From positions 1-64,000 of the forward strand of contig NZ_QTVN01000001.1 of the NCBI RefSeq assembly GCF_003460605.1: 64,000 nucleotides of DNA, given 5' to 3'. The translations under genes and the position numbers were made by a program. The notes under the pieces are model-generated. The model was given only the letters and a program-made list of their open reading frames with translations. It was not told the origin of the DNA and did not search any database. Shown here piece after piece: positions 110 to 14,526 of this stretch. The DNA comes from Ruminococcus sp. AF31-8BH (GTDB lineage Bacteria; Bacillota; Clostridia; Lachnospirales; Lachnospiraceae). Every line of letters starts with the position of its first letter. The first letter of the stretch is position 1.

Positions 110-263
110 TTATTCTAATTCTTTATGCTGGTGCAAATACTTTTCCCTGGTCGCAAGCCCGCCACGAATATGCCGCTCCGACTTATTCACATCCAACACC
201 TCCCGTGCCTGCCTGGCAAGCGCTGGATTCAGGCTCACAAGCCTGCTTGTTACGTCTTTATGT
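110..263 (-). pseudogene. spoIIID: spoIIID 3-prime part (gene split by a 14.15-kb element)
   Basis: Read on the minus strand from the shared core at 263, the frame gives KDVTSRL, NPALARQA, EVLDVNKSERHIRGG and KYLHQHKELE, then TAA at 112-110. This matches the C-terminal half of SpoIIID, the mother-cell regulator whose family shows KDxTERL, NPxLA and the strongly conserved RHxRGG. It supplies 49 codons. There is no start codon or ribosome site of its own. In the integrated state it is only the 3-prime tail of the recombinase transcript. Joined to 14413-14526 it restores an in-frame 87-residue SpoIIID. It is best described as half of a reversibly split gene, not as a decayed pseudogene. Confidence 0.93.
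247..263. other. attL: left junction of the spoIIID element
   Basis: 247-263 matches 14400-14416 at 14 of 17 bases: TTGTTAC, then an aligned TC (GA on the minus strand) at 255-256, then TATGT at 259-263. The recombinase stop codon (260-258) lies inside it. Crossover could be in TATGT or at the GA dinucleotide, which is the core reported for TnpX-type recombinases. Both choices keep spoIIID in frame. Confidence 0.85.
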
Positions 264-1793
264 TTGGTTGTCACTAATTAGAACGGTTTCATCTAAGCCT
301 AAATCACCGAAGATTCGTAAGTAAATATCTACGTTACCATCCTTGTCTACTTCAATTTTCTGGATAATCCGTTTAAGCTGTGCATTGGTCATCTGGTGAA
401 CATCGGAAATATCTTCAATCTCTTTAAACGTGCGATTCAAGATTGTTTCCAGTTGTTCACCTTTTGTCAGGTGATAAGCAACCATTTTCAACTCATTCTC
501 CAGACGCTCGATTTCCTGTTTTGTGCCGCCGATTTTTTCATTCAGTTCCTCACGTGTAATGAGGTCATCGGTGTACATATCCATGTATTTCTGACGCATT
601 TTTTGAAGCTTGTGAAGCTGTGCGTTCAATTCCTTTTCGTAATTCAGGTTCTCATCCTTGGCTTTGTAAACCCTCTGGAATTCGCCTGTTACGTGACGAA
701 TTACATTTTTCTTTGCTTTCAGCAGCTCGGAAAAGTATTCGGACAGAACTTCAATCAACTCTTCCTCGTCCACTGTCTGAGCATTCGGGCAGCTATCCGC
801 CCCACGTCCATTATGACCGGAACATACCCAGCGAATATAAGTATTCTTATAAGTACGAACAGTTCGTCGAAATGACCAGCCACATTCCTTACATTTAATC
901 AGAGTAGAAAACAAATACTTATTGCTCTGCCGTTCCTTTGTTAATTTAAAAGTCTTGCTTCTGCACTCCAAAATCTCCTGTGCCTTTTCATACATTTCCG
1001 GCTCAATAATCCGCAGTTCCGGACGTTCTGTTACCATCCACTCCGTTTCATCTTTTTCCGTTCTCTGTCCGGTCAGGAAGTCAGTTACTTCCTGCTTTCC
1101 ATTGATAATTTTTCCGGTATAAAGTTCATTCGTTAAAATCCGGCACGTCGCATTCTGGCTCCACTGACAATTACGCTTTGTTCGGATGCCTTTCGCATTC
1201 AGCATGTTTGCAATCTTGGCGGCACCATATCCTTCTTCGATATACCATTTATAAATCTGCCTGATAACAGCTGCTTCTTCCTCGTTGATTGCCAAATTAA
1301 AGTAATCTCCAATGGTTTTATCATATCCGTACACAATATTCGGAACTCGTCCTTTTTCAGCATTCATTTTCTTGCCGAATTTCACACGCTTTGAAGTATT
1401 GGCACTTTCTTCCTGCGCCAATGCACCGAAGATTGTCAGAACAAATTCACTGTTTCCCATGCTGGTCATGTTGGCCGTCAAAAACTGTGTCTCGATTCCT
1501 AATGCTTTCAGTTTGCGGACATTCTGCAGAAGGTCTACAGTATTTCTGGCAAAGCGAGAGATGTCCTTTACTACTACCATATCAAATAGTCCATGTTCAG
1601 CATCAGCCATCATGCGTAAAAATTCTTTTCGATTTTTTATTTTCGTGCCTGAAATACCCTCATCTGCATATAATCTAACTAAGTTGTCACCAGTACGCTG
1701 GGTGTACTCAGAGAAAAATTGCTTTTGAGCTTCCAGACTGTTGAGCTGATCAGCTTTATCAGTGGAGACACGACAATAAGCAGCTATATTCAT
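258..1793 (-). CDS. Large serine recombinase (TnpX/SpoIVCA type)
   Basis: This 511-aa site-specific recombinase probably integrates and excises the element. The resolvase domain (about residues 2-150) has the nucleophile Ser10 in YCRVS, plus RLYADEGISGT and DISRFARN. A Recombinase domain follows (about 155-265), then a zinc ribbon with Cys301, Cys304, Cys324 and Cys335, then a coiled coil (about 375-440), the usual plan of large serine recombinases. The ATG at 1793 is chosen because AGAAAGG lies just upstream; the 40 in-frame codons further upstream lie in leader DNA. The TAA stop lies inside attL. If crossover is in TATGT, the excised circle removes this stop and adds 14 codons (YGSNNIERFVWVIE). 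SpoIVCA, which excises skin in Bacillus, belongs to the same family. Confidence 0.93.
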   Translation of the reverse strand: MNIAAYCRVSTDKADQLNSLEAQKQFFSEYTQRTGDNLVRLYADEGISGTKIKNRKEFLRMMADAEHGLFDMVVVKDISRFARNTVDLLQNVRKLKALGIETQFLTANMTSMGNSEFVLTIFGALAQEESANTSKRVKFGKKMNAEKGRVPNIVYGYDKTIGDYFNLAINEEEAAVIRQIYKWYIEEGYGAAKIANMLNAKGIRTKRNCQWSQNATCRILTNELYTGKIINGKQEVTDFLTGQRTEKDETEWMVTERPELRIIEPEMYEKAQEILECRSKTFKLTKERQSNKYLFSTLIKCKECGWSFRRTVRTYKNTYIRWVCSGHNGRGADSCPNAQTVDEEELIEVLSEYFSELLKAKKNVIRHVTGEFQRVYKAKDENLNYEKELNAQLHKLQKMRQKYMDMYTDDLITREELNEKIGGTKQEIERLENELKMVAYHLTKGEQLETILNRTFKEIEDISDVHQMTNAQLKRIIQKIEVDKDGNVDIYLRIFGDLGLDETVLISDNQT

Positions 1794-1838
1794 ATCTAAT
1801 ACCTTTCTGTTATATTTAAGTCGTTCTGTTACAACTTT

Positions 1839-1866
1839 ATTGTACCATCTAAAATATAATTGTAAA
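1839..1866 (-). promoter_or_regulatory. Probable promoter of the recombinase gene
   Basis: On the minus strand TTTACA (1866-1861), a 16-bp spacer and TACAAT (1844-1839) match the housekeeping consensus at 5/6 in each box. The start codon lies 46 bp downstream of the -10 box. No good sigma-E pair was found here, although GGTACAAT partly resembles a sigma-E -10 box. Confidence 0.5.
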
Positions 1867-1875
1867 TAGCAAAAT

Positions 1876-1905
1876 AAGGAATACCCTTTCTTCAGAATAT
1901 TCCTT
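1876..1905 (-). terminator. Hairpin after the HEPN gene
   Basis: AAGGAATA (1876-1883) and TATTCCTT (1898-1905) form a perfect 8-bp stem just after the stop of the HEPN gene. It is followed leftward by ATTTT. This is a weak terminator candidate separating the cargo operon from the recombinase. Confidence 0.4.
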
Positions 1906-1912
1906 ATATGCA

Positions 1913-3637
1913 TTACTCTTCGATAAAAAAATTTTCTAACAATAGCATAATGGATTGTTCATCAACATTACCTGGTTCTTTTAAATTTTTTTTCTTTTTA
2001 TTCAATAACAAATATGTATCTGTAAAAACATCTTGTATCGTCCCAAGGCATTTATCTTTTGCTAATTTAACCATCAACTCAAGAATTACACGATCCACAT
2101 AGATATGCAAATGTTTTCCTAACATTTGTATTCGTTTATGGCTTTCCCCTGCATGAACAATAGCATTTCTAAGCCTATATAAGCGATAAAGATGCCATTC
2201 AATTCTTTGACAATACTTTTCGGAAAGATGCCATAATTTTTCGCGATTTTCTCTTTGCTCATATAAGTTATATATTTTATAACGTATATTGGGATAATAC
2301 TTAAGCTCATTCGCAAAATAATCTTCTCGATATTTCTCATATTTTTCAAGAAATATAAAGCCTGCGATTTTACAAATCTCTTTATCGAATTCTGTTATAT
2401 CTTTAAGCAACAAACTTACTTTTCGATTACCTAAATTATTTTTCAAATCGTCAAGTATATTAGAAAATATGCATTCGAAATAGTCATTTTGTAGAATGGA
2501 AACTATATTATCAGTAACGCTTTCAATTTTGGATTTTGAACTATCTGTAACACTTGCAACCTCCAACGCTGACCACAAATTAAGAAATGCATCATTTAAG
2601 TCTTGTTGATTTAATGCCGCATTATGCAAATCAACAATCTTATTAAGCTGAGAATAAGTTTCCTTTCCTTTTTCTTGGCATCCCAAAACAATTGTATCTA
2701 TTTCAGTTTTAAAATTTTCTCGTGGCTCAGGCTTGATACTTTTATACCCAAACGCTTTTACGGGAAGAATTATTCCCTCTTGGGTATCTTGTCGAATTAC
2801 CAATCCGTTTTTACCTATTACACTGATATTATCATTCAAAAAAACTTCTAAATATCTCAAAAAAATTTCTAATGCAGAATACGCTCGTTTCATTGCTGAA
2901 TAATTATCATATGCCTTTGTTTCCATAACCCCTATAAAGGACTTTTGCTTTCTTTTAATCTGTTTAAAGCAACCATCATCTTCAAACGAAATATGCAATC
3001 TTTCATTTAACAACTTTTGATATGGCTTTAATTTTTCATAAAAAACAAAGTACACTTTGTATTTACCAATTTCAAAATCAAACCTATTCAAAAAAATCTG
3101 TGCTTTTTTTTCTGGATCATTTATACTTTCCTCAAATATATTTCTCAGGAATCTATATATATATTCCGATGAATATCCATGCCATAGCAAAAAAGCAAGC
3201 CAAGCACGAAGTCCTTTTTCAATTTCTGTTTTACGGTTTGATTCCGACAAATTTTCTTTCAAGTATTTACAACATATTTCATAGTACTTTTTCTTTGGTA
3301 TCTTATTGAATATATAATGTACCGCTGTTCTTTGATCTTTATCTAAAAATTTTGCCATCTCTTCAATAACTTCATATTTATACAACTCTCGAACAATAAC
3401 GTCTGTCATTAAACTCGACTTAATCTCTTTTGCAATTATATCTAATTGATATTGCTTAATACTCCCTTTCACCACATCTTTTTCAGTATCAACATATTCT
3501 TCTAATAATGTTTGTGTATTATGAACAGGCGCTTTAACAATATCATCTGAATAATGAAACAACATTTCTTGTAGTCTTTGAACAAAAAATAAATATCCAT
3601 CCTTAGTAGATGTCCAATCTTGTGTAATATATTTCAT
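1913..3637 (-). CDS. HEPN-domain protein (Apea-like), putative RNase
   Basis: This 574-aa protein is very AT-rich compared with the flanking chromosome. Near the C-terminus RNAIVH (Arg490 to His495) is an R-x4-H motif, the catalytic signature of HEPN ribonucleases. It sits in a helix-rich block with LWSALEVAS (355-363), as in Apea-like HEPN domains. The N-terminal 350 residues are unrecognised and helix-rich. GAGGGGGAT precedes the ATG. The gene starts 27 bp after the stop of the AlbA_2 gene, so the two probably form one operon. HEPN proteins are common in toxin-antitoxin and phage-defence loci. An RNase-based defence role is an inference from motif and context. Confidence 0.65.
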   Translation of the reverse strand: MKYITQDWTSTKDGYLFFVQRLQEMLFHYSDDIVKAPVHNTQTLLEEYVDTEKDVVKGSIKQYQLDIIAKEIKSSLMTDVIVRELYKYEVIEEMAKFLDKDQRTAVHYIFNKIPKKKYYEICCKYLKENLSESNRKTEIEKGLRAWLAFLLWHGYSSEYIYRFLRNIFEESINDPEKKAQIFLNRFDFEIGKYKVYFVFYEKLKPYQKLLNERLHISFEDDGCFKQIKRKQKSFIGVMETKAYDNYSAMKRAYSALEIFLRYLEVFLNDNISVIGKNGLVIRQDTQEGIILPVKAFGYKSIKPEPRENFKTEIDTIVLGCQEKGKETYSQLNKIVDLHNAALNQQDLNDAFLNLWSALEVASVTDSSKSKIESVTDNIVSILQNDYFECIFSNILDDLKNNLGNRKVSLLLKDITEFDKEICKIAGFIFLEKYEKYREDYFANELKYYPNIRYKIYNLYEQRENREKLWHLSEKYCQRIEWHLYRLYRLRNAIVHAGESHKRIQMLGKHLHIYVDRVILELMVKLAKDKCLGTIQDVFTDTYLLLNKKKKNLKEPGNVDEQSIMLLLENFFIEE

Positions 3638-3664
3638 TTTTCATCCCCCTCGCATTTTTGTAAA

Positions 3665-5341
3665 TCAATCATTTTTTATCAAGTACCACTTTGCATACCT
3701 ATTAGTTCCTGTTGTAACAACAATTCCATCCTTTTTCATTGCCTGTAACAAATTAGAAACCTTCTTCGATTTCTGTTCATCGCTAAGTACTTCTGGCAAT
3801 GCTTTTTCCAGTACTTCCATTAAATCTCTTTTGCTGGCTTCTCCCATTGACTGAAGTGCTTTTATAATTAACTGCTTGCAAATATCATCATCTAACCCTT
3901 TATTTCGAACATAAGCAGCTTTCTGTCCGACAATATCTGCCACCTTGAAAGATACAAAAACATTAGGATAACGTCCTTCCACAAGACCTTTTTTCTTCAA
4001 ATCCTTAAAGCTTTCTTTAGAAACTACTTCCTGTTTCTGAACTTTATCCAACAAAAATACAGTTCTCATATCTAAATCTTCATTGGAATATAAAAGCTGA
4101 GTATAATTCTTATCCAATATCTTTCCGTACACAGTCACTGTAACTCTATTAATTGTGTTCAAATCATATGTCGGCAATGGGAAGCATTTATCACGCTGTA
4201 TCTGATACATCATTGGTATTCCCATTGAATTTGTATCAATCATATACAGATTTACCATTGCGTTACACAAAAACACATTTCGATAATACGGTGGTTTATA
4301 TCCCGGTTCCAGTGCTTGTTCAATAGTTTCTGGTATAAAAGCCCCCTCATTGATAAATACCAGTCTGTCCTCAAATTCCTCTACGTTGATTTTTCCACGC
4401 AAGCGATAGTCCTGATGAGCAATACAGTTATTAATAATCTCTTTGATCAGCTCTGGTTCATATTGATCTACTTCATCCGGAAACAAAGTCTGCTGTCCGG
4501 CAATATAACGATACTTTACATTTCTGATCCTGGAATATACCTTATCCACTGCCATTAACATCGGTATATCAAAATGTTCATAAGCTTTTACCGAATTATC
4601 TGCATTATAAAGTGTCCAGGTAATTCTAGGAATAAAGCCATCAAAGAAATATTTAGCCTCACTTTTTCCTAATAACAATAATGCCGTTCTGGTGATTTTT
4701 CCTTTTATTGTAATACCAGCTTTATTTAAAACCTCAATATCAGACAGTTTCTTTAAAACTTCCTGTGCTTTTTTTCGATCACTCTGACGTTTTGAGAAAA
4801 GTTCTCTTGCTCTTTTAATCGCTTCTTCATCCAAGTCTTCTATCGTTGCATCTTCTACAATTTCTTTTGACCAATCCATTCCTATTTGACTTCTAAGTAG
4901 ATCTACTTTATTCATCGGAAGCGGTGATATAGATTCATGTTCTCTGGCATACGCTGCCCCTTGCCATGTTGTCGGAATCCCCCTAATAGCTGGAGGAATT
5001 TGAAATGCTATCACTCGACATTTTTCCATTGTCAGTTCGTATATCTCCAGAAATGTCAATCGTTCATTGGTTCCATTTACGATTTCCTTTTTCAAACTTT
5101 GCAGACTTCCCTGTTTCCGAAATTCCGTTCCTACATATCGTTTATCATCCGAAATTCCGAAAATCAGCCACGCCTCCTGTAATCCCCGAAGATTTGCTTC
5201 ATTGCTAAGTGCAGAAAAATATTTACCAATGTCATTAAACGAATAATTTGTGCGTGCTTCTTTAAATTCTACAACTTCATTTTCAAAAGATTCTATCATG
5301 CGAACAATCTTTTCTTTTAATTGGCTATCCGTATATATCAT
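3665..5341 (-). CDS. AlbA_2/Schlafen domain protein with GHKL ATPase-like domain
   Basis: This 558-aa protein has an AlbA_2 (Schlafen) nucleic-acid-binding domain at about 18-140, with EVVEFKEAR, AWLIFGISDD and IPPAIRGIPT. A HATPase_c_4 region (about 295-395) contains EIINNCIAHQDY and VFINEGAF. A winged-helix-like C-terminal segment (about 485-558) follows. This is the COG2865 arrangement, often loosely annotated as a RecG-like regulator. AAGGCGG precedes the ATG. It is the first gene of a pair with the HEPN protein, and its leader carries tandem TAGTCATAG repeats. Related proteins act as regulators or in defence; the role here is unknown. Confidence 0.8.
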   Translation of the reverse strand: MIYTDSQLKEKIVRMIESFENEVVEFKEARTNYSFNDIGKYFSALSNEANLRGLQEAWLIFGISDDKRYVGTEFRKQGSLQSLKKEIVNGTNERLTFLEIYELTMEKCRVIAFQIPPAIRGIPTTWQGAAYAREHESISPLPMNKVDLLRSQIGMDWSKEIVEDATIEDLDEEAIKRARELFSKRQSDRKKAQEVLKKLSDIEVLNKAGITIKGKITRTALLLLGKSEAKYFFDGFIPRITWTLYNADNSVKAYEHFDIPMLMAVDKVYSRIRNVKYRYIAGQQTLFPDEVDQYEPELIKEIINNCIAHQDYRLRGKINVEEFEDRLVFINEGAFIPETIEQALEPGYKPPYYRNVFLCNAMVNLYMIDTNSMGIPMMYQIQRDKCFPLPTYDLNTINRVTVTVYGKILDKNYTQLLYSNEDLDMRTVFLLDKVQKQEVVSKESFKDLKKKGLVEGRYPNVFVSFKVADIVGQKAAYVRNKGLDDDICKQLIIKALQSMGEASKRDLMEVLEKALPEVLSDEQKSKKVSNLLQAMKKDGIVVTTGTNRYAKWYLIKND

Positions 5342-5364
5342 ATTCTTCCGCCTTTCAAAATTTT

Positions 5365-5407
5365 CTATGACTAAATTCTATGACTAATCTATGACTTTCT
5401 AGAACTA
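5365..5407. repeat. Four direct repeats (CTATGACTA) before the AlbA_2 gene
   Basis: CTATGACTA occurs at 5365-5373 and 5378-5386, CTATGACT at 5389-5396, and a variant CTAGAACTA at 5399-5407. Start-to-start spacing is 13, 11 and 10 bp, close to one helical turn. They lie 24-66 bp upstream of the start codon, which suits an operator array for a regulator of the AlbA_2-HEPN pair. Confidence 0.5.
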
Positions 5408-5445
5408 ATTTTAACTGATTTTCAGACAGAACACAAGCAATAGCA

Positions 5446-5483
5446 AAAAAATAAAAGGCATCCCACGCGCTACGCAGGACACC
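5446..5483 (-). terminator. Terminator of the replication operon
   Basis: On the minus strand an 11-bp stem with some G-T pairs (5483-5457, loop TAGCG) overlaps the stop of the 58-aa gene. TTTTATTTTTTT follows. It ends the relaxase-primase-helicase operon before the AlbA_2-HEPN pair. Confidence 0.75.
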
Positions 5484-5646
5484 CTCCATCATGTTTTGGT
5501 TCATTGGGAAGCTCATCCGCTGCTTCTTGTATTGCCTGTTCCACCTTACTTGCATTTGCTTCAATCAATATCTTTAACAGATAGTCGGCGGTTACTTCCG
5601 CAGTGTTTGGATTATGGAATCGATAATTAAGTTTTCTCTTTTTCAT
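5470..5646 (-). CDS. Small conserved element protein, 58 aa
   Basis: This 58-aa protein begins MKKRKLNYRFHNPNT and has no recognised domain. The ATG at 5646 is preceded by GGAGGAGGTGG, a very strong ribosome site. The open frame continues upstream without such a signal, so the short form is preferred. It lies after vapE and before the operon terminator. Short proteins in this position are common in Lachnospiraceae mobile elements, but no function is known to me. Confidence 0.6.
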   Translation of the reverse strand: MKKRKLNYRFHNPNTAEVTADYLLKILIEANASKVEQAIQEAADELPNEPKHDGGCPA

Positions 5647-5953
5647 AGCGGAATTTCCACCTCCTCCCGTATGTCTTTGTCCATAACTATGAAAATGTTT
5701 TTTGAAATAGTCCTGCCAAATGCCATTCCTGTTCAACTTAAATAGATGCCGGTCAAAGGGGCATCCCTGTTGTAAACCACCGCTGTAAACAAACTCCAAA
5801 AAATCTAATTCTTTTTGTTTTTTCAGTTTTCTTTCCTCAATACCAAATTACTCTTATATATCTGTTTACTGTTTACAAATTCTACAAGTCAAAGCAATAT
5901 CCATAGAAAAAAGTGTAAACAACACGCCAACTACCGTAAACCTGACTGGCATT
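5647..5953 (-). other. Gap between vapE and the 58-aa gene
   Basis: This 307-bp stretch has no gene I can support. The frame of the 58-aa protein extends into it without a good start. GTTTACA and GTAAACA motifs recur several times between about 5780 and 5945 and also in the 3-prime end of vapE. They could be iteron-like sites or chance in AT-rich DNA. Confidence 0.3.
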
Positions 5954-7360
5954 TTACTGGAAAGGTAACTCCACCTGCCGGGCTTCCTTCTCAGTAATCG
6001 GATGCCAGTCATTTTCATTTTTTAAGTCTTTTGCGTCTCGTTTACAGTTTTCGTTTACACATACCCACGAACGCTGTGTACCGTAATCCTTGAATCTTGT
6101 CATCGTCCCCTGTTTCCAACCCACAATGCTTGTATTCATGATTTCACAGATGCGGTCTGTCTCCGCCTTCTTCGGCTTTACATAAGGATTGTCCAGTGCC
6201 TCTTTAAAAAGCATCAATGAACAGACTTTTCTGTCTTCATGTTCATCCAGCCATGCCTGTATCATTCCGGCTTCCGTATCATCCGCCATGAACTCCTGCC
6301 GCAGTTTATCAAGCTGTGTTTCTGTTTCCTTTGAAAACGCCAGTTTAAAATTTCCATTACGGTACAACATCATTGCTTCCGCCCACACCTGATCAATATA
6401 CTGTCTGGATTCCTTCTCATTTTCGAGGATATGAACCTCCATCTCTGCCCGGTTCGTCTGAACCGGAACGAATCTTCGATTTCCGGTACGGTCAAACGGC
6501 AGGAATCGCTTAATATTGGATGTTCCTCCAAATACACATTGCCTCGGACGATCAAGAGCATATACTGCATAAGAATCCCGATAAGTCTCTTTCTGCCTGC
6601 TCAGAAAGCTCTTTGTTTCCTCAATACTCTTAGAGCGTGCCGTTGCGACCATTTCAGACATTTCAATCATCCAATGACCACGAAGCTGACAATAAACTTT
6701 TTCCGAATCCAGTTTGCCGATGTCATCAGTGAACCAGTCATCCTTTACTGCCATGAAACGAAAAAATGTAGATTTTCCCACGCCCTGACCCCCGACCAGA
6801 CAGAGCATATATTCAAACTTAATTCCGGGGCGGAACGCACGGGCAATAGCTCCCAGCAAAAACATTTTCATACTTTCATAGGTCAACTCATCCACAGGTG
6901 CACCAAGAAAATGATGCAGCACATAGCGGATACGTTCCTGCCCATCCCATTGCAGACTGTTCAAATAATCCCGGACAGGGTGATATTTGTTCCGATCTGC
7001 CTGATGGACAATACTTTTCTGCACAATCTTATCCATCGTCAGACCGTAAGTCTCTTCCAAATAAAGCATAATATAGTTCAAATCCATATCTGTGAATGCC
7101 GGGCTTATCCGTTCCCACCACACGGGTTTTACAATGTCTGTCTGCTCAGTCAAAATATTGTGCCGGAATACATCTTTTAACAGAGGATCATGTTCTAAAA
7201 TTAGCTTACAGTTATGCCGATTGTTTTTCACAGCACCCTTCTGTGTCATTTCCAGTTGTTCTCTGATTTCCTCTACTGTCAACTCCGTTTCCATTATATC
7301 CATTACTTCGCACAATTCCTGTCGTGTCTGTGGTGATAAAGTCTGAAATTCTCTGTTCAA
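5954..7360 (-). CDS. VapE/VirE-family superfamily 3 helicase-like protein
   Basis: This 468-aa protein has a Walker A motif GGQGVGKST at 190-198 and downstream acidic and arginine motifs (GKLDSEKVY, WMIEMSEM, RPRQCVFGGTSN, GNRRFVPV) typical of the virulence-associated E family, which acts as replicative helicase in phages and satellites. The start is TTG at 7360, set by GGAGGTGA seven bases upstream. It overlaps the 3-prime end of the primase gene by 149 bp, implying coupled translation. With the CHC2 primase it probably replicates the excised circle. Confidence 0.9.
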   Translation of the reverse strand: MNREFQTLSPQTRQELCEVMDIMETELTVEEIREQLEMTQKGAVKNNRHNCKLILEHDPLLKDVFRHNILTEQTDIVKPVWWERISPAFTDMDLNYIMLYLEETYGLTMDKIVQKSIVHQADRNKYHPVRDYLNSLQWDGQERIRYVLHHFLGAPVDELTYESMKMFLLGAIARAFRPGIKFEYMLCLVGGQGVGKSTFFRFMAVKDDWFTDDIGKLDSEKVYCQLRGHWMIEMSEMVATARSKSIEETKSFLSRQKETYRDSYAVYALDRPRQCVFGGTSNIKRFLPFDRTGNRRFVPVQTNRAEMEVHILENEKESRQYIDQVWAEAMMLYRNGNFKLAFSKETETQLDKLRQEFMADDTEAGMIQAWLDEHEDRKVCSLMLFKEALDNPYVKPKKAETDRICEIMNTSIVGWKQGTMTRFKDYGTQRSWVCVNENCKRDAKDLKNENDWHPITEKEARQVELPFQ

Positions 7361-7916
7361 TCGCTGTCACCTCCTTCCCATGAGCCACCACTACGGCAAC
7401 TCGTTCTTCTAATGTGCCTGATAATAATGTATCCAACAGGTACTCTGTTTCTGATATTTTTTCCAATGCCTCCATAAACAGCGGATGCCAGACATCTTCC
7501 ACCTGTTTCGGAGCACACTCTTCTTTCCACTGTTTCAACAAATGCAGGTAATCTGCCAGTGCACGGAAATATCTATTTTCTGCCTGCAGATACCTCTGTT
7601 CCTGTGTTAGCTGTCGTTTGATTTGTTTTCTCTGTGGCGGGCTGTGCCCCATGTTCTCATAATGTATAGAAAAATCTCTTGCCAATTTCTCTGCCGCCTC
7701 TTTTGGTTTTAAATTGTACAAGTGTGCCGTAAAATCAATCACATCCCCATCTGCCTGACATCCGAAACAATGAAAACGCCTGTCCACTTTCATGCTTGGA
7801 TTCTTGTCACGGTGAAATGGACAGACCGCCATTCCATTCTTGTTTACCCGTATTCCATAGCTTTCTGCAGCCTGCCGGGTAGTCACAGACTGTTTAACTG
7901 CTTCAAATATATTCAT
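7212..7916 (-). CDS. CHC2 zinc-finger DNA primase, short form
   Basis: This 234-aa protein has a DnaG-type CHC2 zinc finger at 32-53 (Cys32, His35, Cys50, Cys53; CPFH...CFGC) followed by GDVIDF. No TOPRIM domain is present, so it is a short primase or the DNA-binding half of one. The C-terminal part overlaps vapE in another frame and is low in recognisable motifs. It lies 21 bp after the relaxase gene and is probably co-transcribed with it. Confidence 0.85.
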   Translation of the reverse strand: MNIFEAVKQSVTTRQAAESYGIRVNKNGMAVCPFHRDKNPSMKVDRRFHCFGCQADGDVIDFTAHLYNLKPKEAAEKLARDFSIHYENMGHSPPQRKQIKRQLTQEQRYLQAENRYFRALADYLHLLKQWKEECAPKQVEDVWHPLFMEALEKISETEYLLDTLLSGTLEERVAVVVAHGKEVTAIEQRISDFITTDTTGIVRSNGYNGNGVDSRGNQRTTGNDTEGCCEKQSA

Positions 7917-7937
7917 CCTTTTCCTCTTTTCTTTACA

Positions 7938-9176
7938 TCACAACTCCATATCGTTCCTTCCCAATTTAGTTCTTCCTTCGTGTTCCCATCGCTCTCGGTT
8001 CTCCTGTTCCGCAGTAATTTTTGCTTTTGCCAGCCTATCCAGAATGGAACTTCTGGCTTTTTTCTTAATCTGTTCGGTATTCACCTTTTTGACTTCCGGT
8101 TTTATCAGCGTGGTCTGGATTGTTTTAACTGCTGTCTGCATAGCTTTTGTAATTTTGGTAATTACTCCGTCCAATCGACTTACAGCATAAGTTCTTTCTT
8201 TTTGGGAAGCCTTGCGCTCAGGGGAAAGCACCCACGCCTTTGACTGTTCTACCAGACGAATGTCTTCTTTATGGGTTTCCACTCTGACCTCATCCGTCAC
8301 AACCTCCACAGCTTTGTCGTAAGCAATATCTGAAACTTCATCGATCAAAGCTTCTACTTCTTCAATTTTCAAAGTAAGTGTATCCAGTATTTCTGTCTGG
8401 TTTTTCATCTGTTCCTTTTGCTTAAACAGGATATAATCCTGCTTTTCAAGATAATCTCGCCCTCCATAAGACGGTTCTTCTTCCAGATGCAACCCGTATT
8501 TTCGAGTTATATCAAAAAGCATTGTCCGGCAAATAGCATCAAAAGTCTGCTTTCGATTATTATTGCGGCCTTTAGGTTTATCCGGTTTTGGAAGTGCAAT
8601 CCCTAATTCTTCCAGTGCTTTTTCCTGCTGGGGACAGATTTCCCCGTACTTATTCTCACAATCAAAAACATGACGTTCATGAATGTGCGGCGTTCCTTCG
8701 TCCAAATGCAGTGCCCAGTCCAGAATATGGACATGAGAACCGAACCGATTTGTGAACTGCTTTGTAAAGTCCTGTACGACCGCAAGTAATATTTCATAGG
8801 AAACAGATTCTTCTACTGTTCCTATTTGAAAAATAGTTTCCTCTGGACAGGTTTTATTGTTCTTTAGTAAATCTTCCACAGATCGGTTACGCTCTGTATG
8901 ACGGGTTCTTGCATTTCTTTCATTCTGCGCTTCTATATATTTTCCATAATGTTCCTGATAAAAAGTACATTCAATTTTCTCAAAACTGATATCCTGAGAA
9001 TCTTCTTCCCTGTTCTGCATTGTGGTATAGCCACGGTAACAGTCCCAGTAAATATTTTCTCTGACTCTTCCAGCATCAATATGTTCACTGTTTTCCAAGT
9101 CGAAACGGCGATCATTATGCCTGGGATTATAAGTGCCATTTTTCCCGGAGCGTCCATTGTGTCTTGTTGCTTTCAA
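7938..9176 (-). CDS. MobV/Pre-type relaxase (Mob_Pre family)
   Basis: This 412-aa protein carries the relaxase metal motif HxDExxPHxH at 157-166 (HLDEGTPHIH), characteristic of MobV/Pre relaxases such as TnpZ of Tn4451. Coiled-coil-rich sequence follows from about residue 245. The start is TTG at 9176, with AAGGAGGGC upstream. It would nick at oriT so that the circular form can be mobilised by another conjugative system. No type IV secretion genes lie in the element, so it is mobilizable, not self-transmissible. Confidence 0.9.
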   Translation of the reverse strand: MKATRHNGRSGKNGTYNPRHNDRRFDLENSEHIDAGRVRENIYWDCYRGYTTMQNREEDSQDISFEKIECTFYQEHYGKYIEAQNERNARTRHTERNRSVEDLLKNNKTCPEETIFQIGTVEESVSYEILLAVVQDFTKQFTNRFGSHVHILDWALHLDEGTPHIHERHVFDCENKYGEICPQQEKALEELGIALPKPDKPKGRNNNRKQTFDAICRTMLFDITRKYGLHLEEEPSYGGRDYLEKQDYILFKQKEQMKNQTEILDTLTLKIEEVEALIDEVSDIAYDKAVEVVTDEVRVETHKEDIRLVEQSKAWVLSPERKASQKERTYAVSRLDGVITKITKAMQTAVKTIQTTLIKPEVKKVNTEQIKKKARSSILDRLAKAKITAEQENRERWEHEGRTKLGRNDMEL

Positions 9177-9235
9177 TAATTTTCTTGCCCTCCTTTTTCA
9201 CGTTTTTCCAAATTAAATAAGGCAGCGAAGCTGCA

Positions 9236-9299
9236 AACCTGCGTGAATTTGCGTCAGGTAATACCCAGTATGAGTAGACGCACGCATCAACTCACTGGG
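9236..9299. other. Candidate oriT region
   Basis: Upstream of the MobV gene are two dyads. One is ACCTG...CAGGT around GCGTGAATTTGCGTC (9236-9259). The other is CCCAGT-AT-GAGT (9264-9275) with ACTC-ACTGGG (9290-9299). MobV origins usually lie just upstream of mob and contain such inverted repeats. Position and structure are the only evidence. Confidence 0.35.
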
Positions 9300-9356
9300 C
9301 AATGGCTGCCGCCCTTAACCTGCACAAAAGACTTCGCTCTCCGCTCTGCTCCAGAT

Positions 9357-9581
9357 TTAGTTACTATTCTCCGGCACCCTTCCATTCCCCTTTGCCATCC
9401 ATTCGAAAAAAGCAATTTTACTAACCTTAATTAATCTGCCGCTTCGAAATGCCGGAAAACCGGGTGTATGAACCAGTTCATAAGCCGTTACTCTGGAAAT
9501 CCCCATAATCCGCTGAATATCAGCCACATCCAGTACAAGAGGCAGTTCATCATAATTGTTTAATCTCTTATTTTCACTCAT
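9357..9581 (-). CDS. Excisionase-like small helix-turn-helix protein
   Basis: This 74-aa protein has a MerR-type winged helix-turn-helix (DVADIQRIMGISRVTAYELV, then SGRLIKVSKIAFFEWM), the usual form of Xis and other excisionase-family DNA-binding proteins. It is encoded upstream of the relaxase gene on the same strand. It may set the direction of recombination, or may control the mob operon. Only the family is visible from sequence. Confidence 0.85.
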   Translation of the reverse strand: MSENKRLNNYDELPLVLDVADIQRIMGISRVTAYELVHTPGFPAFRSGRLIKVSKIAFFEWMAKGNGRVPENSN

Positions 9582-9897
9582 GTTGTTCCTCCATTTTTGA
9601 TCTCATTTTTTTAGCTTCTCATTGCCGTTTTCTCTTTCCTGTTTCCTGAGTCATACTGCTGTCAAGGCATACAACACGTCATCCATTCGGATGCGCTCAC
9701 TTCTTTTATCGAAGGTCATGGCGGTTTATCTCAGGTTAGACGGTCATAAAGTTGTCAAAGTACACTGCATAGTACGAAATTACCATTCAATCGTATCTTA
9801 TCAATCTCATCTTGACTTTTCAATACTTTCGCGATACCATAAATGTAACTAATATTATATTTTTTAAAATTACCATACAAAACAGGAGCAAATAGAA
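9582..9897 (+). promoter_or_regulatory. Divergent intergenic region with promoter for the DUF6076-like gene
   Basis: This 316-bp region separates the leftward Xis-like gene from the rightward gene at 9898. On the plus strand TTGACT (9822-9827), a 17-bp spacer and TACCAT (9845-9850) form a likely promoter, with AGGAGC before the start codon. No gene was seen in the rest. Confidence 0.5.
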
Positions 9898-10941
9898 ATG
9901 GCTTATCAATTTATAAGGCAAGAACCTTGCTACGACCACATCCTCTTCGTTCTGGCATTGGATAGAGACAAAATGAAGGAGCGAATTTTAATCGGAACGG
10001 AACAGCAAATCCGTTTTCGACTGGACGGAAATAAAGATAACGATGTCATATATGATATAACACGTCCTCTAGGACGTTTTCTGATAGATTTTGAATATGA
10101 TAAAGAAAAGAACTGGAATATATATGGACTTGCTCCCCTACGTGATGCATTGCACACTAACCGTTGGAAACAGCCTGCACTGGAACAGACTGCTGGTGAT
10201 TTTCTGGCAAAAAAATATCTCACCGGTGATCCGGTGAGAATGTATGCTACATTCCGTATTTGGAATGAATATCTTGTTACAAGGGAATATCGTGACCGTA
10301 ATACTGCCTGTGATCGTTTTATAGAAAAAATCCAAATTTTGACTCAGGCATTCCAAACAGAAAATGTCATGAATTTTAATTCTGATACCGGAAAACCAGA
10401 ACGTTTTCATACTGGCAGTCTTTATTTCCGCAACACTCCTGCTGAAATCACTCGACTTGAACTTTGGTTTCCGGATAATAGGCGCAGAACAGAATGCGTA
10501 GCTGCCTATAGCTCTTTTTATCCGCTTATCACTTATTACTTGAATCGACTGAATGACTGGGGCCTTTGTTTCCGTCAGTGCAAAGTCTGTGGAAAATATT
10601 TTCTGGCAAAAAGCCAGCGTTATGAACTGTGCAGTGATAAGTGCCGTAAAGCACAGGCACTTCAAAACAAAAGGGAGTTTGATGAACGAGCCAGAGAAAA
10701 TAACTATGATCTGCTTTATAAAAATGAATGCCAGAATTGGCGTAATAAAATCAATAAGTCCCAAAAAACTGCTAATTTTCCGATTGAACGCCTGGAAGAA
10801 ATGAAAAATGCGTTTGACCTTTTTAAGAAAGAAGCTCTGCAGCGTAAGAAAGCTGTAAAGGCAGGAGCAACCAGTCCGACAGAATTCACAGACTGGTTGT
10901 ATCAGCAGAGCAATATTATCTTAAAACTCAGCAAAATCTGA
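9898..10941 (+). CDS. DUF6076-like zinc-ribbon protein
   Basis: This 347-aa protein is the only rightward gene in the element. A zinc-ribbon-like motif (CKVCGKYFLAKSQRYELCSDKCR, about residues 224-246) is followed by a basic, helical C-terminus (KREFDERARENNYD). This pattern occurs in proteins annotated DUF6076 in Lachnospiraceae mobile elements; the family name is from memory. The zinc ribbon with a basic tail suggests nucleic-acid binding. Function is unknown. It is convergent with the winged-helix gene, with a shared hairpin between. Confidence 0.6.
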   Translation: MAYQFIRQEPCYDHILFVLALDRDKMKERILIGTEQQIRFRLDGNKDNDVIYDITRPLGRFLIDFEYDKEKNWNIYGLAPLRDALHTNRWKQPALEQTAGDFLAKKYLTGDPVRMYATFRIWNEYLVTREYRDRNTACDRFIEKIQILTQAFQTENVMNFNSDTGKPERFHTGSLYFRNTPAEITRLELWFPDNRRRTECVAAYSSFYPLITYYLNRLNDWGLCFRQCKVCGKYFLAKSQRYELCSDKCRKAQALQNKREFDERARENNYDLLYKNECQNWRNKINKSQKTANFPIERLEEMKNAFDLFKKEALQRKKAVKAGATSPTEFTDWLYQQSNIILKLSKI

Positions 10942-10960
10942 ATCCATCCCTGTAAAGGAA

Positions 10961-10984
10961 AGGCAGCGAATTTACTCGCTGCCT
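10961..10984. terminator. Bidirectional terminator hairpin
   Basis: AGGCAGCGA (10961-10969) and TCGCTGCCT (10976-10984) form a perfect 9-bp stem between convergent genes, overlapping the stop of the winged-helix gene. Flanks are pyrimidine-rich in both directions (GCCTTCTC rightward, TTCCTTT leftward). Confidence 0.65.
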
Positions 10985-11403
10985 GCCTTCTCATTGAACT
11001 TGTATCCTACACCCCAGACGGTTTGAATATATACCGGGTTACCCGGATCATCTTCTATTTTCTCACGAATATGACTGATATGGCTCATTACTATATTGTA
11101 ATCGCCAAAATAGGATTCTTTCCAGACTATATCATAAATCTGTTCTTTACTAAATACTCTTCCTGGATTTTGTGCTAATAACTGCAGGATTTCAAACTCG
11201 GTGTAAGTTAATTCTATTTTTCTATTATCACGAACGACTTCTCTCCGTTTCAAATCAATCGCTATACCCTTATGCCATATTTTCGATTGAAATTGTATTT
11301 CCTGAAAAAGAAATTTCTCTCTGCCGGAATCTAACACAGAAATAACAGAATTTACCAAATCTTCCTCAGCTCCCTCGAATGATACCAGCAATATTTTTCC
11401 CAC
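10972..11403 (-). CDS. OmpR-type winged-helix protein without receiver domain
   Basis: This 143-aa protein ends in an OmpR/PhoB winged helix (about 45-138; ELTYTEFEILQLLAQNPGRVFSKEQIYDIVW and VWGVGYKF). The N-terminal 45 residues are too short for a receiver, and no phospho-acceptor Asp pocket is seen. It is the third gene after blaI and blaR1, 30 bp downstream, so it probably belongs to their operon. It could be an orphan DNA-binding output protein or the remnant of a full response regulator. Confidence 0.8.
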   Translation of the reverse strand: MGKILLVSFEGAEEDLVNSVISVLDSGREKFLFQEIQFQSKIWHKGIAIDLKRREVVRDNRKIELTYTEFEILQLLAQNPGRVFSKEQIYDIVWKESYFGDYNIVMSHISHIREKIEDDPGNPVYIQTVWGVGYKFNEKAGSE

Positions 11404-11433
11404 CTAATCGTCCTCGTTTCATTTAATACTAAC

Positions 11434-13458
11434 TTAATGTTTCGCCTCTGAAGTATATCCATCAAATGTTTCCGCTTCCGGATTAAATTCAGTAAATAAT
11501 TCCTGCATTCTATTTTTGCTTACTTTTTGAAAGCTGCTGATCTTTCCACTTTTGTCTCTCGTTACTTCAATGTACATAGTTCCGTTGCTGTTAGAAAAGA
11601 TTCCCCTTCCCTCATCATATAAATCTGCTATAATCTTACCATTATAAACCCAGTTTCCTTGAGCATCACAAGATACTCCATAATCAGCATACTCCTGTGG
11701 AACAGCAATATTAAGACCTTTTCCCTCTTCACTGCTATATTCGCCCATGTCATCAGCCGCTATGTTCTCACTTCCTCCTTCTTCAAAAACAGATCCTTTC
11801 ATTTCATCTGCAGTTACAGCTTCTCCGCCGGAACTTTCAACCAATACTGCCGGTTCTGACCAAAAATCATCTGATAACGGTTCTGCCTTTACGTCTGTGA
11901 TGGTGCCATAGTTTTCCCTTTGCACTTCAACTCGAAGCGTACCTCCACGTTTGGAACTTATTGTATAAGTACCCGGCTTAAACTCATCCCGGAAATATCC
12001 AATGGTCTTTCCATCATACATCAGAAATCCTGTTTCTTTCTGGTAAGTTATTCCCGCTTTTGCATATTCAGAAAGCTGTTCTTCGCTGAATACATTTTCA
12101 TTACTGTCTTTATTTTCGGTGACCGTTTCTGCTTCCTGCTTCGCATATTCTATATTTTCCGGAGAATATGCCATTGTAATTCCCACTGCATCATCAGATG
12201 ATTTCGACAACTTCATCCCATCTTTTATTTTTTGAAGATTATCCTCATAAAGTGCAATCGTCTCATCTACCTTTTCCTGTGTCCATACAAACCATCCGTC
12301 GCCGCCTGTATAAGCTTTTTCACCAATCATAGACTGCAGAACTTCTTTTTCCTCGTCCAGCCATTTCGCATACTCTTCTGCTGTCCACCATTCCACATCC
12401 GAACTTGAAAGTGATTCATCTTCCCGGATATTCACTTCGTTTAAAGCAACTGTTGTTTCACCGTTTTCTTGCGCTGTCTCTGTCTTTTTCTCCAAGGATG
12501 ATGCGGAAGTTGCAAATCCACCTGTCACGCAAATTACCAATACTGCACTTATAATTACTGCAAACTTAGATGTCTTCTTTATCTTCATAATTGCTCTTAT
12601 CCTCTCTTCAATCGCATTTTTACTGAAACTGTTACATAATGGTGTCAGTCCGCTCTTTTTTTCTTCCATAGATATTAAAGCAGTTGCATATACCGACTTT
12701 ATATCCATTCCAAATCTACGGACTACGGTTTCGTCACAGGATAATTCCAAATCTCTGTTAAAAAGAATATACATTACCCACACAAGAGGATTAAACCAAT
12801 GAATGCATACTGCAGCAATCATTATCAGCTTTGTAAGCATATCAAGCCGTCTGATATGCACATATTCATGTTCCAACACATAACGAAGCTGATAAATATT
12901 TTTCCATTCTGTATTTTTCGGCATTAAAATAACTGGGCGAATCACACCATAAGAAAGTGGTGCAGCTATGGTTTCTGTCTGCCGGATGGATAGACTCCTT
13001 TTTAGTGGATGTTTTTCCTTCCATGCTTCCAAAATATCATTTTCAACAGGCAGCGAAAATCGAAATTCCCGATAACATTTTATATAGGAAACCGCAAAAA
13101 ATCCAAAACAAAGTAACAGACCTGCCAGCCATATTACACTCAAAATCGAAATGGATTCTGTTCTCTGTACCATAGCCTCTGATAATCCATTTGCTATCTC
13201 AGGCATATTCCCATGAATGGGTAAAAATGTTGTCGTTTGCGCCGTTCTCACTGGGTTTATATCAGAATAAATACTCTGCAACAGAGAATAAATACTTGTG
13301 ACTGATTTTATGGAAAATGGAACTAATAACCGTATTAATGCAATCCACCATAAAATCAAAAATGTTTTCTTCGGTAATCTGTTGATAAGCACAGCCCTTA
13401 ATACCACAATAAGTAAAATAATAACCGTTCCCAGAAAACTCATTTGCAGCAGGCTCAT
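11434..13458 (-). CDS. blaR1: BlaR1-type M56 metallopeptidase with non-beta-lactam sensor region
   Basis: This protein is about 674 aa from the ATG at 13458, chosen because GAGGTG lies six bases upstream; a GTG at 13482 would overlap blaI. An N-terminal membrane domain carries the zinc protease motif HEYVH with SCDE downstream, as in BlaR1/MecR1. A membrane segment (FAVIISAVLVICVTGGFATS) leads to a large outer region. Instead of a penicillin-binding domain, this region has two related segments (ITYQKETGFLMYDGKTIGYF... and VSCDAQGNWVYNGKIIADLY...). It should sense an unknown signal and cleave the BlaI-type repressor. Confidence 0.85.
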   Translation of the reverse strand: MSLLQMSFLGTVIILLIVVLRAVLINRLPKKTFLILWWIALIRLLVPFSIKSVTSIYSLLQSIYSDINPVRTAQTTTFLPIHGNMPEIANGLSEAMVQRTESISILSVIWLAGLLLCFGFFAVSYIKCYREFRFSLPVENDILEAWKEKHPLKRSLSIRQTETIAAPLSYGVIRPVILMPKNTEWKNIYQLRYVLEHEYVHIRRLDMLTKLIMIAAVCIHWFNPLVWVMYILFNRDLELSCDETVVRRFGMDIKSVYATALISMEEKKSGLTPLCNSFSKNAIEERIRAIMKIKKTSKFAVIISAVLVICVTGGFATSASSLEKKTETAQENGETTVALNEVNIREDESLSSSDVEWWTAEEYAKWLDEEKEVLQSMIGEKAYTGGDGWFVWTQEKVDETIALYEDNLQKIKDGMKLSKSSDDAVGITMAYSPENIEYAKQEAETVTENKDSNENVFSEEQLSEYAKAGITYQKETGFLMYDGKTIGYFRDEFKPGTYTISSKRGGTLRVEVQRENYGTITDVKAEPLSDDFWSEPAVLVESSGGEAVTADEMKGSVFEEGGSENIAADDMGEYSSEEGKGLNIAVPQEYADYGVSCDAQGNWVYNGKIIADLYDEGRGIFSNSNGTMYIEVTRDKSGKISSFQKVSKNRMQELFTEFNPEAETFDGYTSEAKH

Positions 13459-13468
13459 ATACATCACC

Positions 13469-13837
13469 TCATTCCAATTCACTGACGATCTGCTTCAGGT
13501 TCTTAATCTGCTCCATAGAAAGTTTTTTTCTGCCAAGAAGTGCCGCAAACAACTTGTCAACAGATCCATCATATATCTTATCAATAAGTTCATCTGTTTC
13601 CAGATCCTGTACCTGTTCTTTTGCTATAAGCGCATGGCACATAAATCCCGGTTCCGTTCGTTCAATCGCGCCTTTATTGATACACCGCTTAATCAATGTA
13701 TACGTTGTGTTTTTATTCCAGCCGACTTCTCTGTTTAAAGTATCTGCAACATATTTCGCTGGCACGTCACCATCCTTCCACAGAACATCCATTACCTTTA
13801 ATTCCGAATCAAAAAGTTTGATATTTTCCTCTGTCAC
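13469..13837 (-). CDS. blaI: BlaI/MecI-type repressor
   Basis: This 122-aa protein has the BlaI/MecI/CopY winged helix (ELKVMDVLWKDGDVPAKYVADTLN, then NKNTTYTLIKRCINKGAIER) and a C-terminal dimerisation helix (ALLGRKKLSMEQIKNLKQIVSELE). It is followed within 10 bp by blaR1, the standard repressor-protease order. Two dyads overlap its promoter, indicating autorepression. Confidence 0.92.
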   Translation of the reverse strand: MTEENIKLFDSELKVMDVLWKDGDVPAKYVADTLNREVGWNKNTTYTLIKRCINKGAIERTEPGFMCHALIAKEQVQDLETDELIDKIYDGSVDKLFAALLGRKKLSMEQIKNLKQIVSELE

Positions 13838-13854
13838 TTGTTTCGCCTCCTATA

Positions 13855-13910
13855 AGACTACAGTAGTCTGTTCTTGTTTTCAGACTACCACAGTCTTATA
13901 ACATTGTCAA
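13855..13910 (-). promoter_or_regulatory. blaI promoter with two BlaI-type operators
   Basis: On the minus strand TTGACA (13910-13905), a 17-bp spacer and TAGTCT (13887-13882) form the promoter. AGACTACAGTAGTCT (13855-13869) is a perfect 15-bp palindrome. A second, weaker copy AGACTACCACAGTCT (13882-13896) covers the -10 box. Centres are 27 bp apart. Confidence 0.8.
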
Positions 13911-13928
13911 TCATTTTCTGTCGCTAGG

Positions 13929-13959
13929 AAAAGAAAAACAGCCAGCCTTTCGGCTGACT
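13929..13959 (-). terminator. Terminator after tnpV
   Basis: On the minus strand AGTCAGCC, a GAAA tetraloop and GGCTGGCT (13959-13940) form an 8-bp stem, followed by GTTTTTCTTTT. It should stop transcripts that enter tnpV from the right, including any from the spoIIID sigma-E promoter. Confidence 0.85.
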
Positions 13960-13967
13960 GCTCCATA

Positions 13968-14345
13968 CTAAATATAAACCATTTCGTTCAGTACAATTTC
14001 TTCTGCTCTGTTTCTAATATTATTACACCGTTGTACCCAAAGCATAGCATCTTTCCGCTTCAATTCCTCCGTCACTCCCTCAGCCGCTTTCATCTGATCA
14101 ACAATACACGTAAACCGTTCCTCCGCTTGTTCGTCCAAATCCTCCAGATAGCTCCAAAGTTTTCCGGTCAGCAGTAAACTGGAATATCTACCGTAGCACT
14201 GCTTTTTCAGATACTCCCTGTGCATTCGTCCCCACTTACCGATAGATCGCTTTTCCTCCGGCAGCTTCAAGTCTGGGATATAATAATCCCCGACAAGTAC
14301 ATAATCAATGCCATTCTCCGTAATTCTTGTTTTCAAATCCTTCAT
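13968..14345 (-). CDS. tnpV: TnpV transposon-encoded protein
   Basis: This 125-aa protein matches the TnpV family of Tn4451-type transposons: YVLVGDYYIPDLKLPEE near the N-terminus, GKWGRMHREYLKK, and a helical C-terminus ending ALLWV-like QRCNNIRNRAEEIVLNEMVY. AAGGAGGAACG precedes the ATG at 14345; an upstream in-frame start is less likely. TnpV function is unsettled. It is the first element gene downstream of the spoIIID fragment, so the sigma-E promoter at 14557-14586 points straight into it. An inverted repeat brackets its leader. Confidence 0.85.
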   Translation of the reverse strand: MKDLKTRITENGIDYVLVGDYYIPDLKLPEEKRSIGKWGRMHREYLKKQCYGRYSSLLLTGKLWSYLEDLDEQAEERFTCIVDQMKAAEGVTEELKRKDAMLWVQRCNNIRNRAEEIVLNEMVYI

Positions 14346-14391
14346 GGTTCGTTCCTCCTTGGTTTTTCTTATTCTATTACCCAAACGAACC
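14346..14391. repeat. 8-bp inverted repeat around the tnpV leader
   Basis: GGTTCGTT (14346-14353) and AACGAACC (14384-14391) are exact complements 30 bp apart. In the tnpV transcript one arm lies between the ribosome site and the ATG, so a hairpin could limit translation. The pair could instead be a protein-binding dyad next to attR. Confidence 0.5.
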
Positions 14392-14394
14392 GTT

Positions 14395-14526
14395 CTATAT
14401 TGTTACTTCCATATGTACCGTGCTCTTACTAACCCCAAACTTTTTCGCTGTTTGTCTCACTGTTGCCTTCGTCTCAATAATATAGTTCCCAATTTCCACT
14501 GCCCGTTCTTCAATATATTCTTTCAA
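14395..14526 (-). pseudogene. spoIIID: spoIIID 5-prime part (gene split by the element)
   Basis: The minus-strand frame starts at TTG 14526 after GGAGGC and reads KEYIEERAVEIGNYI, TKATVRQTAKKFGVSKSTVH: the N-terminal half and helix-turn-helix of SpoIIID. Native sequence ends at His38 (14413). The element then supplies MEVTI and a TAG at 14397-14395, giving a 43-residue product that lacks the C-terminal DNA-contacting region. The continuation KDVTSRL... is found 14.15 kb away at 259. In the integrated state SpoIIID function should be absent, and late mother-cell gene control would depend on excision. Confidence 0.93.
14400..14416. other. attR: right junction of the spoIIID element
   Basis: TTGTTAC, an aligned TC at 14408-14409 and TATGT at 14412-14416 match attL at 14 of 17 bases. 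To the right lies spoIIID codon 38 (His); to the left is element DNA leading to tnpV. Confidence 0.85.

Follow-up and report, generated by a model that had tools for sequence, protein, structure and literature searches.

Probable skin-like elements with a dedicated serine recombinase split spoIIID at one fixed codon

SpoIIID has an established role in the mother cell of Bacillus subtilis and Clostridioides difficile. In Ruminococcus sp. AF31-8BH its gene is in two pieces: within the 64,000 nucleotides analysed here (positions 1 to 64,000 of contig NZ_QTVN01000001.1; this whole stretch is called the window below), a 14,153-bp element with a large serine recombinase lies between the halves of spoIIID. 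Elements of this kind break the gene at the same codon in genomes of the genus Blautia and of other families of the order. The sequences themselves show the split and its constant position, a recombinase dedicated to it, transfer between species, undamaged gene halves, and a recurrent small gene with a conserved promoter motif. We consider it likely, with a probability of roughly 0.8, that these are skin-like spoIIID-intervening elements, in which the dedicated recombinase and a recombination directionality factor (RDF) under the mother-cell sigma factor sigma-E bring about excision in the mother cell. We infer that the small gene encodes the RDF, that sigma-E drives it, that the element leaves in the mother cell and that restored SpoIIID feeds back on the process.

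Results

The window carries spoIIID in two halves that rejoin in frame

Both halves lie on the (-) strand and share the word TATGT on the (+) strand (ACATA on the (-) strand) at an offset of 14,153 bp, which is the length of the element. The break point falls after STVH. Joining the halves in silico at ACATA gave an 87-residue SpoIIID without a gap (...GVSKSTVH/KDVTSRL...RHIRGG..., the slash marking the break). Coordinates and rejoining thus bear out the first-pass annotation, which had described two halves 14,153 bp apart on one strand, in the right order and in frame at TATGT, and a rejoined protein of 87 residues including RHIRGG. At the sequence level, the coding region of a sporulation gene is interrupted and precise excision would restore its frame. 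The features at the two ends are the following.

110..263, (-) strand: spoIIID 3' half, from the core (259-263) of the left attachment (att) site, attL, to the stop codon (110-112)
261..286, (-) strand: attL, with the element arm CCGTTCTAATTAGTGACAACCAAACA
262..14414, (-) strand: intervening element, 14,153 bp, bounded at the probable crossover dinucleotide CA
14390..14413, (-) strand: attR, with the element arm TATGGAAGTAACAATATAGAACGG, an imperfect inverted copy of the attL arm
14412..14526, (-) strand: spoIIID 5' half, 38 codons, TTG start at 14526, ending in the attR core (14412-14416); Pfam PF12116 (SpoIIID), profile positions 1-41, E 8.6e-19
14557..14586, (-) strand: sigma-E-type promoter of spoIIID, TCATATT-N15-CATACACT, judged by a consensus of the B. 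subtilis type

Another 7-bp word, TTGTTAC, is also shared in register 12 bp from the core, so that the window alone leaves the exact crossover unfixed. Since 28 other elements break spoIIID at the same codon, the split in the window exceeds chance.

The same codon is interrupted in Blautia and beyond

As the first-pass annotation had suggested, related genomes were searched for uninterrupted spoIIID and for elements at the same codon, and both were found. The 64 searched genomes of the genus Blautia (group g1, which includes Blautia schinkii, Blautia massiliensis and Blautia glucerasea) comprised 25 with intact spoIIID, 13 with halves and 26 with none above the cut-off. The halves were on one contig in nine of the 13 and on two contigs in two, and the remaining two had the 3' half only. 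The host of the window is itself probably a Blautia, since its GlgB is 100% identical to proteins recorded under Blautia acetigignens and Blautia sp.; the window shares 22% of its sequence words with genome G001, an amount close to the length of the element. In a family sample of 396 genomes, 255 had SpoIIID over the cut-off, 28 of them with only partial best matches, some of which may be contig breaks. Among the other families of the order, members of f5, f11, f16 and f17 had both halves on one contig, and single halves only were reported for f7 and f19.

Besides that of the window, 32 genomes had both halves on the same contig and in the same strand, at distances of 3.5 to 120 kb. Elements were read end to end in 28 of these, which together with the window's makes 29 elements of 3,527 to 19,387 bp. 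Excluded from the proven splits were G589, where the halves adjoin and a frameshift is probable, G586, where they are on opposite strands, and all cases of a single half or of halves on different contigs. All 29 elements interrupt the same codon, after ST(V/I)H; the dinucleotide CA at the crossover is common to all 29 and ACA to 27, and the ends form imperfect inverted arms across the elements read. Cargo differs widely between elements, except for one group of six related ones and a few smaller groups. In the eight split genomes assembled into no more than about ten contigs (G005, G068, G087, G282, G488, G553, G610 and G651), no second full spoIIID copy was found. Many of the genomes are metagenome-assembled, which would favour an assembly chimera or a mixture of strains, but both halves stand in the right order in the single-contig genomes G068, G087, G282, G488 and G651, and on one contig in the strain assemblies of Blautia schinkii MSK.6.26 and Blautia massiliensis GD8. 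The single-contig cases already contradict such an artefact, the probability of which we regard as close to nil.

Two loci stand apart. In the single-contig genome G488 (L065, L066), counted among the 32 pairs, the halves are 120 kb apart, and no related recombinase was found in the 7 kb read at either end. At L062 (G013), an extra spoIIID 5' half with an attR-like arm (297-423) lies directly upstream of an intact spoIIID (645-888) and is perhaps the scar of a lost element.

The element moves between species

The window element and an element of Blautia schinkii differ by 3 mismatches in 14,153 positions, whereas the rejoined spoIIID genes of the two hosts are 69.6% identical. Likewise, the elements at L038 and L040 show 100.0% identity over 88% of the element, with spoIIID genes that are 79.7% identical. 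Near-identical elements in hosts with divergent spoIIID indicate that the element moves between species.

The recombinase is dedicated to spoIIID

Pfam domains in a 511-amino-acid (aa) protein at the attL end confirm the serine recombinase that the first-pass annotation had placed inside spoIIID.

258..1793, (-) strand: large serine recombinase, 511 aa from MNIAAYCRVS, with its stop codon inside the att core and pointing into the spoIIID 3' half; Pfam Resolvase, Recombinase and Zn ribbon
1835..1866, (-) strand: sigma-A-like recombinase promoter (TTTACA, TACAAT), judged by eye from an alignment

When the genes were clustered, only the recombinase was present in all 29 elements. In Blautia, it was found (E up to 1e-120) in 13 of 13 genomes with split or half spoIIID, always at spoIIID, and in 0 of the 51 others (Fisher 8e-14). 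A search of named genomes confirmed 433 recombinase relatives, of which the best 80 were examined: 75 stand directly before a spoIIID 3' half, two end at a contig end and three are elsewhere. The 75 include Blautia schinkii, Blautia massiliensis, Blautia glucerasea, Extibacter muris and Schaedlerella arabinosiphila, as well as Pseudoflavonifractor phocaeensis, Flavonifractor sp. An82, Angelakisella massiliensis and Agathobaculum butyriciproducens. Schaedlerella arabinosiphila DSM 106076 is a named strain with the element, and in Extibacter muris DSM 28560 the 3' half alone was seen. Identity to the window's recombinase ranges from 45 to 100% among the spoIIID recombinases, which form one group in a midpoint-rooted tree, together with two relatives from viral contigs. 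As in skin-like elements, then, the element has its own site-specific recombinase and matching att sites.

Free forms of the att site were present in viral contigs. Four of the seven found (L193-L196; 50 to 119 kb) encode a recombinase 71-73% identical to the window's, followed by a complete attP, at which they are not integrated. The four sites comprise two distinct sequences, L194-L196 sharing one. An example reads CTCCTGTA-CA-TACAGGAG, and its symmetry about CA points to CA as the central dinucleotide. Contig L196 has matches to a phage-type DNA polymerase, ribonucleotide reductase and endolysin. Of the 26 elements computed, 22 have the recombinase stop codon inside the att core, where the host's CATAA completes it; circularization would extend the frame in 21 of the 22, usually by 14-18 residues. 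A longer frame of this kind is present at the viral attP of L196 (525 aa).

A small gene behind a sigma-E-type promoter is the candidate RDF

Every one of the 29 elements encodes a small protein marked by the motif FHNPNT, of 37 to 78 residues, although the start positions are uncertain. The assignment is strong in 27 and weak in two (L042 and L052), in both of which the gene adjoins the recombinase. In the window these features were found:

5470..5646, (-) strand: 58-aa protein MKKRKLNYRFHNPNT..., candidate RDF
5671..5683, (-) strand: putative SpoIIID box TGGACAAAGACAT (also written GGACAAAG), directly after the -10 of the RDF promoter
5681..5712, (-) strand: sigma-E-type promoter of the candidate RDF, GACTATT-N14-CATAGTTAT, with a low score in the matrix test described below

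The FHNPNT gene was present in 11 of 13 split Blautia genomes and 0 of 51 others; the two without it, G015 and G034, have a contig break inside the recombinase gene or shortly beyond it. It was also present in 68 of the best 80 named loci. No family in Pfam, NCBIfam or PHROGs covered the 58-aa protein of the window, and the best 120 of its 1775 relatives (E up to 1e-3) are unnamed or hypothetical.

Upstream of the gene we noticed GACTATT-N14-CATAG(T/A)(T/A)ATGGACAAAG or a variant of it. It was compared with a sigma-E consensus of the B. subtilis type, KMATATT-N14/15-CATA, applied after the motif had been seen; the host spoIIID promoters mostly have the same spacing and CATA and agree with this consensus in these two respects. 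With at most one mismatch, the promoter was present in 20 of 29 RDF regions (10 of 16 non-redundant elements, a grouping made by our own judgement) but in only 2 of 330 other element genes, and with two mismatches in 25 of 29 versus 29 of 330. Outside the discovery set, 34 of 53 loci had it (21 of 38 non-redundant) versus 3 of 606 controls; these 53 are the 68 named loci with the gene minus 11 duplicates of the first set and four with a low score or near a contig start. A matrix trained on the host spoIIID promoters with consensus pseudocounts also placed the RDF regions as a set above the other genes (median 0.7 versus -2.8, p 1.6e-6), with scores of at least 8 in 6 of 29 RDF regions and 4 of 330 controls.

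GGACAA follows a CATA in 18 of 29 elements, a count made without a control set. It resembles the B. subtilis SpoIIID box. Judged by its sequence and place, the GGACAA box would fit repression of the RDF by restored SpoIIID.

As an alternative, excision might belong to development yet depend on the host or on a different sigma factor, such as sigma-K or an early one, the FHNPNT protein having a transfer or regulatory function. That no known family covers the protein, that kilobases separate its gene from the recombinase in some elements and that the -35 GACTATT in the window is off consensus with a low matrix score would all suit such a view. We nevertheless think it quite unlikely, given that the gene accompanies all 29 elements, is often beside the recombinase and separates split from other Blautia genomes, and that the 14-nt spacing and the CATA -10 are shared. 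Moreover, SpoIIID is needed for sigK in known systems, and control by sigma-K would be circular if that holds here.

Split genomes retain other sporulation genes

Among the Blautia genomes, full-length SpoIVA was found in 13 of 13 with split, 21 of 25 with intact and 3 of 26 without spoIIID. A near-full-length sigK-type match (E 1e-82 or better) was present in all 13 split and 6 of the 26 spoIIID-less genomes, with the sigK model's own cut-off being passed by only 1 of 64. YabG was above the cut-off in none of the 64, including those with full spoIVA, and is uninformative on sporulation. No stop codon interrupts any of the 44 rejoined spoIIID genes computed, which comprise the 29 and a further 15 from named loci and include 42 distinct sequences. 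Open rejoined genes and kept spoIVA and sigK speak against decay but are no proof of excision, as a recent arrival would leave the same picture.

These data bear on the asporogenous strain that the first-pass annotation had offered as its alternative. In its wider form, the element would be selfish and spoIIID a mere landing site, carriers remaining asporogenous until rare spontaneous loss, with excision not being developmental. The element is indeed young in this host, with three mismatches to that of another species, and its excised form was not seen in the assemblies or, with a pattern that was too strict, in viral contigs. Against this, a sigma-E-type promoter precedes the small gene in independent sets of loci, SpoIVA sets the split genomes apart from the spoIIID-less ones, every rejoined gene is open, and the association with spoIIID extends to recombinases 45% identical to the window's. 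Together with the constant codon beneath varied cargo and the kept sigK, this disfavours the asporogenous alternative without disproving it, and we rate it as unlikely. The skin-like arrangement in spoIIID that had been proposed is supported, though unproven, by the fixed codon, the open genes, the kept spoIVA and sigK, and the promoter.

Several observations weigh against excision in the mother cell under sigma-E. The matrix score of the window's RDF promoter (-0.9) is below the 95th percentile of other genes (5.4); both its -35, GACTATT, and the end of its -10 deviate from the consensus, and 9 of the 29 elements have no sigma-E-type match at up to one mismatch. The putative box differs from the C. 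difficile SpoIIID box TGTAACAAT (PMC5025042). Three of the best 80 recombinase relatives sit away from spoIIID. The pooled ratio of nonsynonymous to synonymous polymorphism (pN/pS) is slightly higher for split than for intact genes (0.170 in 13 pairs versus 0.122 in 14 pairs), as are the medians (0.120 versus 0.057), and intact halves could, by sequence, equally reflect recent arrival. The excised junction (attP pattern) was found in 0 of 68 assemblies, nor in any viral contig, where the pattern was so strict as to miss the attP sites that later came to light. Finally, the open-licence PMC literature yielded no report in which a split strain was tested for spores.

A second insertion system, and split sigK

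At four loci, G149 (L079), G200 (L083), G618 (L098) and G231 (L106), three tandem serine recombinases stand before the spoIIID 3' half, and the element end in G377 (L087) is similar to this type. Where the 5' half was read (G149 and G200), the break lies two codons downstream; the element ends in G149 are GGCGTCATAAT and ATTATGACGCC. Where they could be aligned, the three recombinases of G231 share 22 to 27% identity with that of the window. Low identity and shifted break indicate that two distinct recombinase systems settled in the same few codons.

In the genus Blautia, sigK itself is also split, with halves 8.4 kb apart in G078 (L200), 14.6 kb apart in G035 (L201) and on two contigs (C96 and C11) in G030. 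The two sigK-element recombinases that were compared are about 25-26% identical to the spoIIID recombinase.

Further gene content of the window element

The remaining genes of the element are listed here.

1913..3637, (-) strand: 574-aa protein, no family above cut-off
3665..5341, (-) strand: Schlafen/AlbA_2 and HATPase_c_4 protein
5954..7360, (-) strand: VapE-like protein
7212..7916, (-) strand: CHC2 zinc-finger (primase-type) protein
7938..9176, (-) strand: relaxase-like protein, judged by eye; no Pfam or NCBIfam match
9357..9581, (-) strand: HTH_17 protein
9898..10941, (+) strand: DUF6076 protein, orientation opposite to the other genes
10972..11403, (-) strand: response-regulator DNA-binding domain protein
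11434..13482, (-) strand: BlaR1-type M56 peptidase, below the NCBIfam BlaR1 cut-offs
13469..13837, (-) strand: BlaI-type penicillinase repressor
13968..14384, (-) strand: TnpV protein

This cargo is of the mobilizable-element type and not prophage-like. Prophage-like content is common but not required in skin-like elements. The gin element is without it (PMC5595907). A plasmid search with the element gave no match. The sole match of the phage search was MT839285.1 (L072), a 4.4-kb faecal 'Bacteriophage sp.' scaffold that is 98.9% identical to window positions 5849-8623 (replication genes).

Discussion

Relation to known elements

No paper on a spoIIID-intervening element was found among open-licence PMC papers. 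The introduction of the yin paper names sigK, spsM, spoVFB and gerE as interrupted genes, to which the paper adds yabG, and spoIIID is absent from its main text (PMC10747680).

The nearest parallel is the C. difficile skin element in sigK, with a constitutive large serine recombinase (CD1231), a 72-aa RDF under sigma-E control (CD1234) and rejoining of a mother-cell gene by excision; CD1231 and CD1234 are likened here by description. It differs in its target and in that its RDF also needs SpoIIID (PMC5025042). The candidate RDF of the spoIIID element cannot have that requirement. B. subtilis skin (SpoIVCA) and SP-beta in spsM match the excision proposed here in rejoining a mother-cell gene by means of a recombinase and an RDF (PMC6957869) but occupy other genes and are prophage-derived, and the skin recombinase is itself sporulation-specific (PMC5595907). 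The Bacillus cereus gin element in gerE, again likened by description, resembles ours in its non-prophage, mobile-element cargo and mother-cell regulator target, and the second spoIIID type in its three serine recombinases; the host genus, the target and the sporulation-specific GirC are different (PMC5595907). The yin element of Clostridium botulinum has a serine recombinase and a putative small RDF with a sporulation-type promoter, but is prophage-like and known from one strain, in yabG (PMC10747680).

Outside sporulation, transposons of the Tn4451 type (TnpX, TnpV) share TnpV and a large serine recombinase with the window element, although TnpX in PDB is a weak match (E 1.5e-8). Tn4451-type transposons use several chromosomal targets and a GA core, whereas the spoIIID element has one dedicated target (spoIIID for 75 of the 80 top-ranked recombinase relatives) and a CA core. 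The Anabaena fdxN element is excised during development from a terminal cell by a serine recombinase (XisF), but gene and organism are unrelated, and the window recombinase is a weak match that, at 121.6 bits, falls under the NCBIfam XisF equivalog cut-off of 375. CcrB and CcrC, the recombinases of the staphylococcal cassette chromosome (SCC), were rejected at 158.5 and 133 bits against an equivalog cut-off of 900.

The first-pass annotation had raised a new class of developmental rearrangement. What is new is spoIIID as the target gene and a broad, widespread element family that is still mobile; the kind of rearrangement is already known.

A proposed cycle

We propose that integration at a single attB in spoIIID, with CA probably central, would cut the gene after STVH. 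The recombinase would be transcribed from its housekeeping-type promoter, and excision would wait for the 58-aa RDF, whose promoter is of the same sigma-E type as that of spoIIID. During sporulation, sigma-E in the mother cell would turn on the RDF and also drive transcription of the truncated spoIIID; the element would leave as a circle, and spoIIID would be rejoined in frame. Restored SpoIIID may in turn repress the RDF gene by way of the box beside its promoter, and the forespore would retain the integrated element.

A bolder and rather speculative extension, which we hold to be improbable though worth stating, is that spoIIID serves as a convergently used safe harbour in gut Clostridia. 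Two recombinase systems and free phages would target it, the elements would be wired to the mother-cell programme, the circle would be released in a cell about to lyse, so that sporulation might serve both gene repair and element spread, and SpoIIID would repress the RDF.

Elements in spoIIID may be common in the family, given the 28 of 255 SpoIIID genomes with only partial matches, and annotation or sporulation prediction could wrongly count split strains among those without spoIIID. Because their attB is fixed, the recombinases are candidate genetic tools, and the system offers a test of how mobile DNA comes under the control of a developmental programme.

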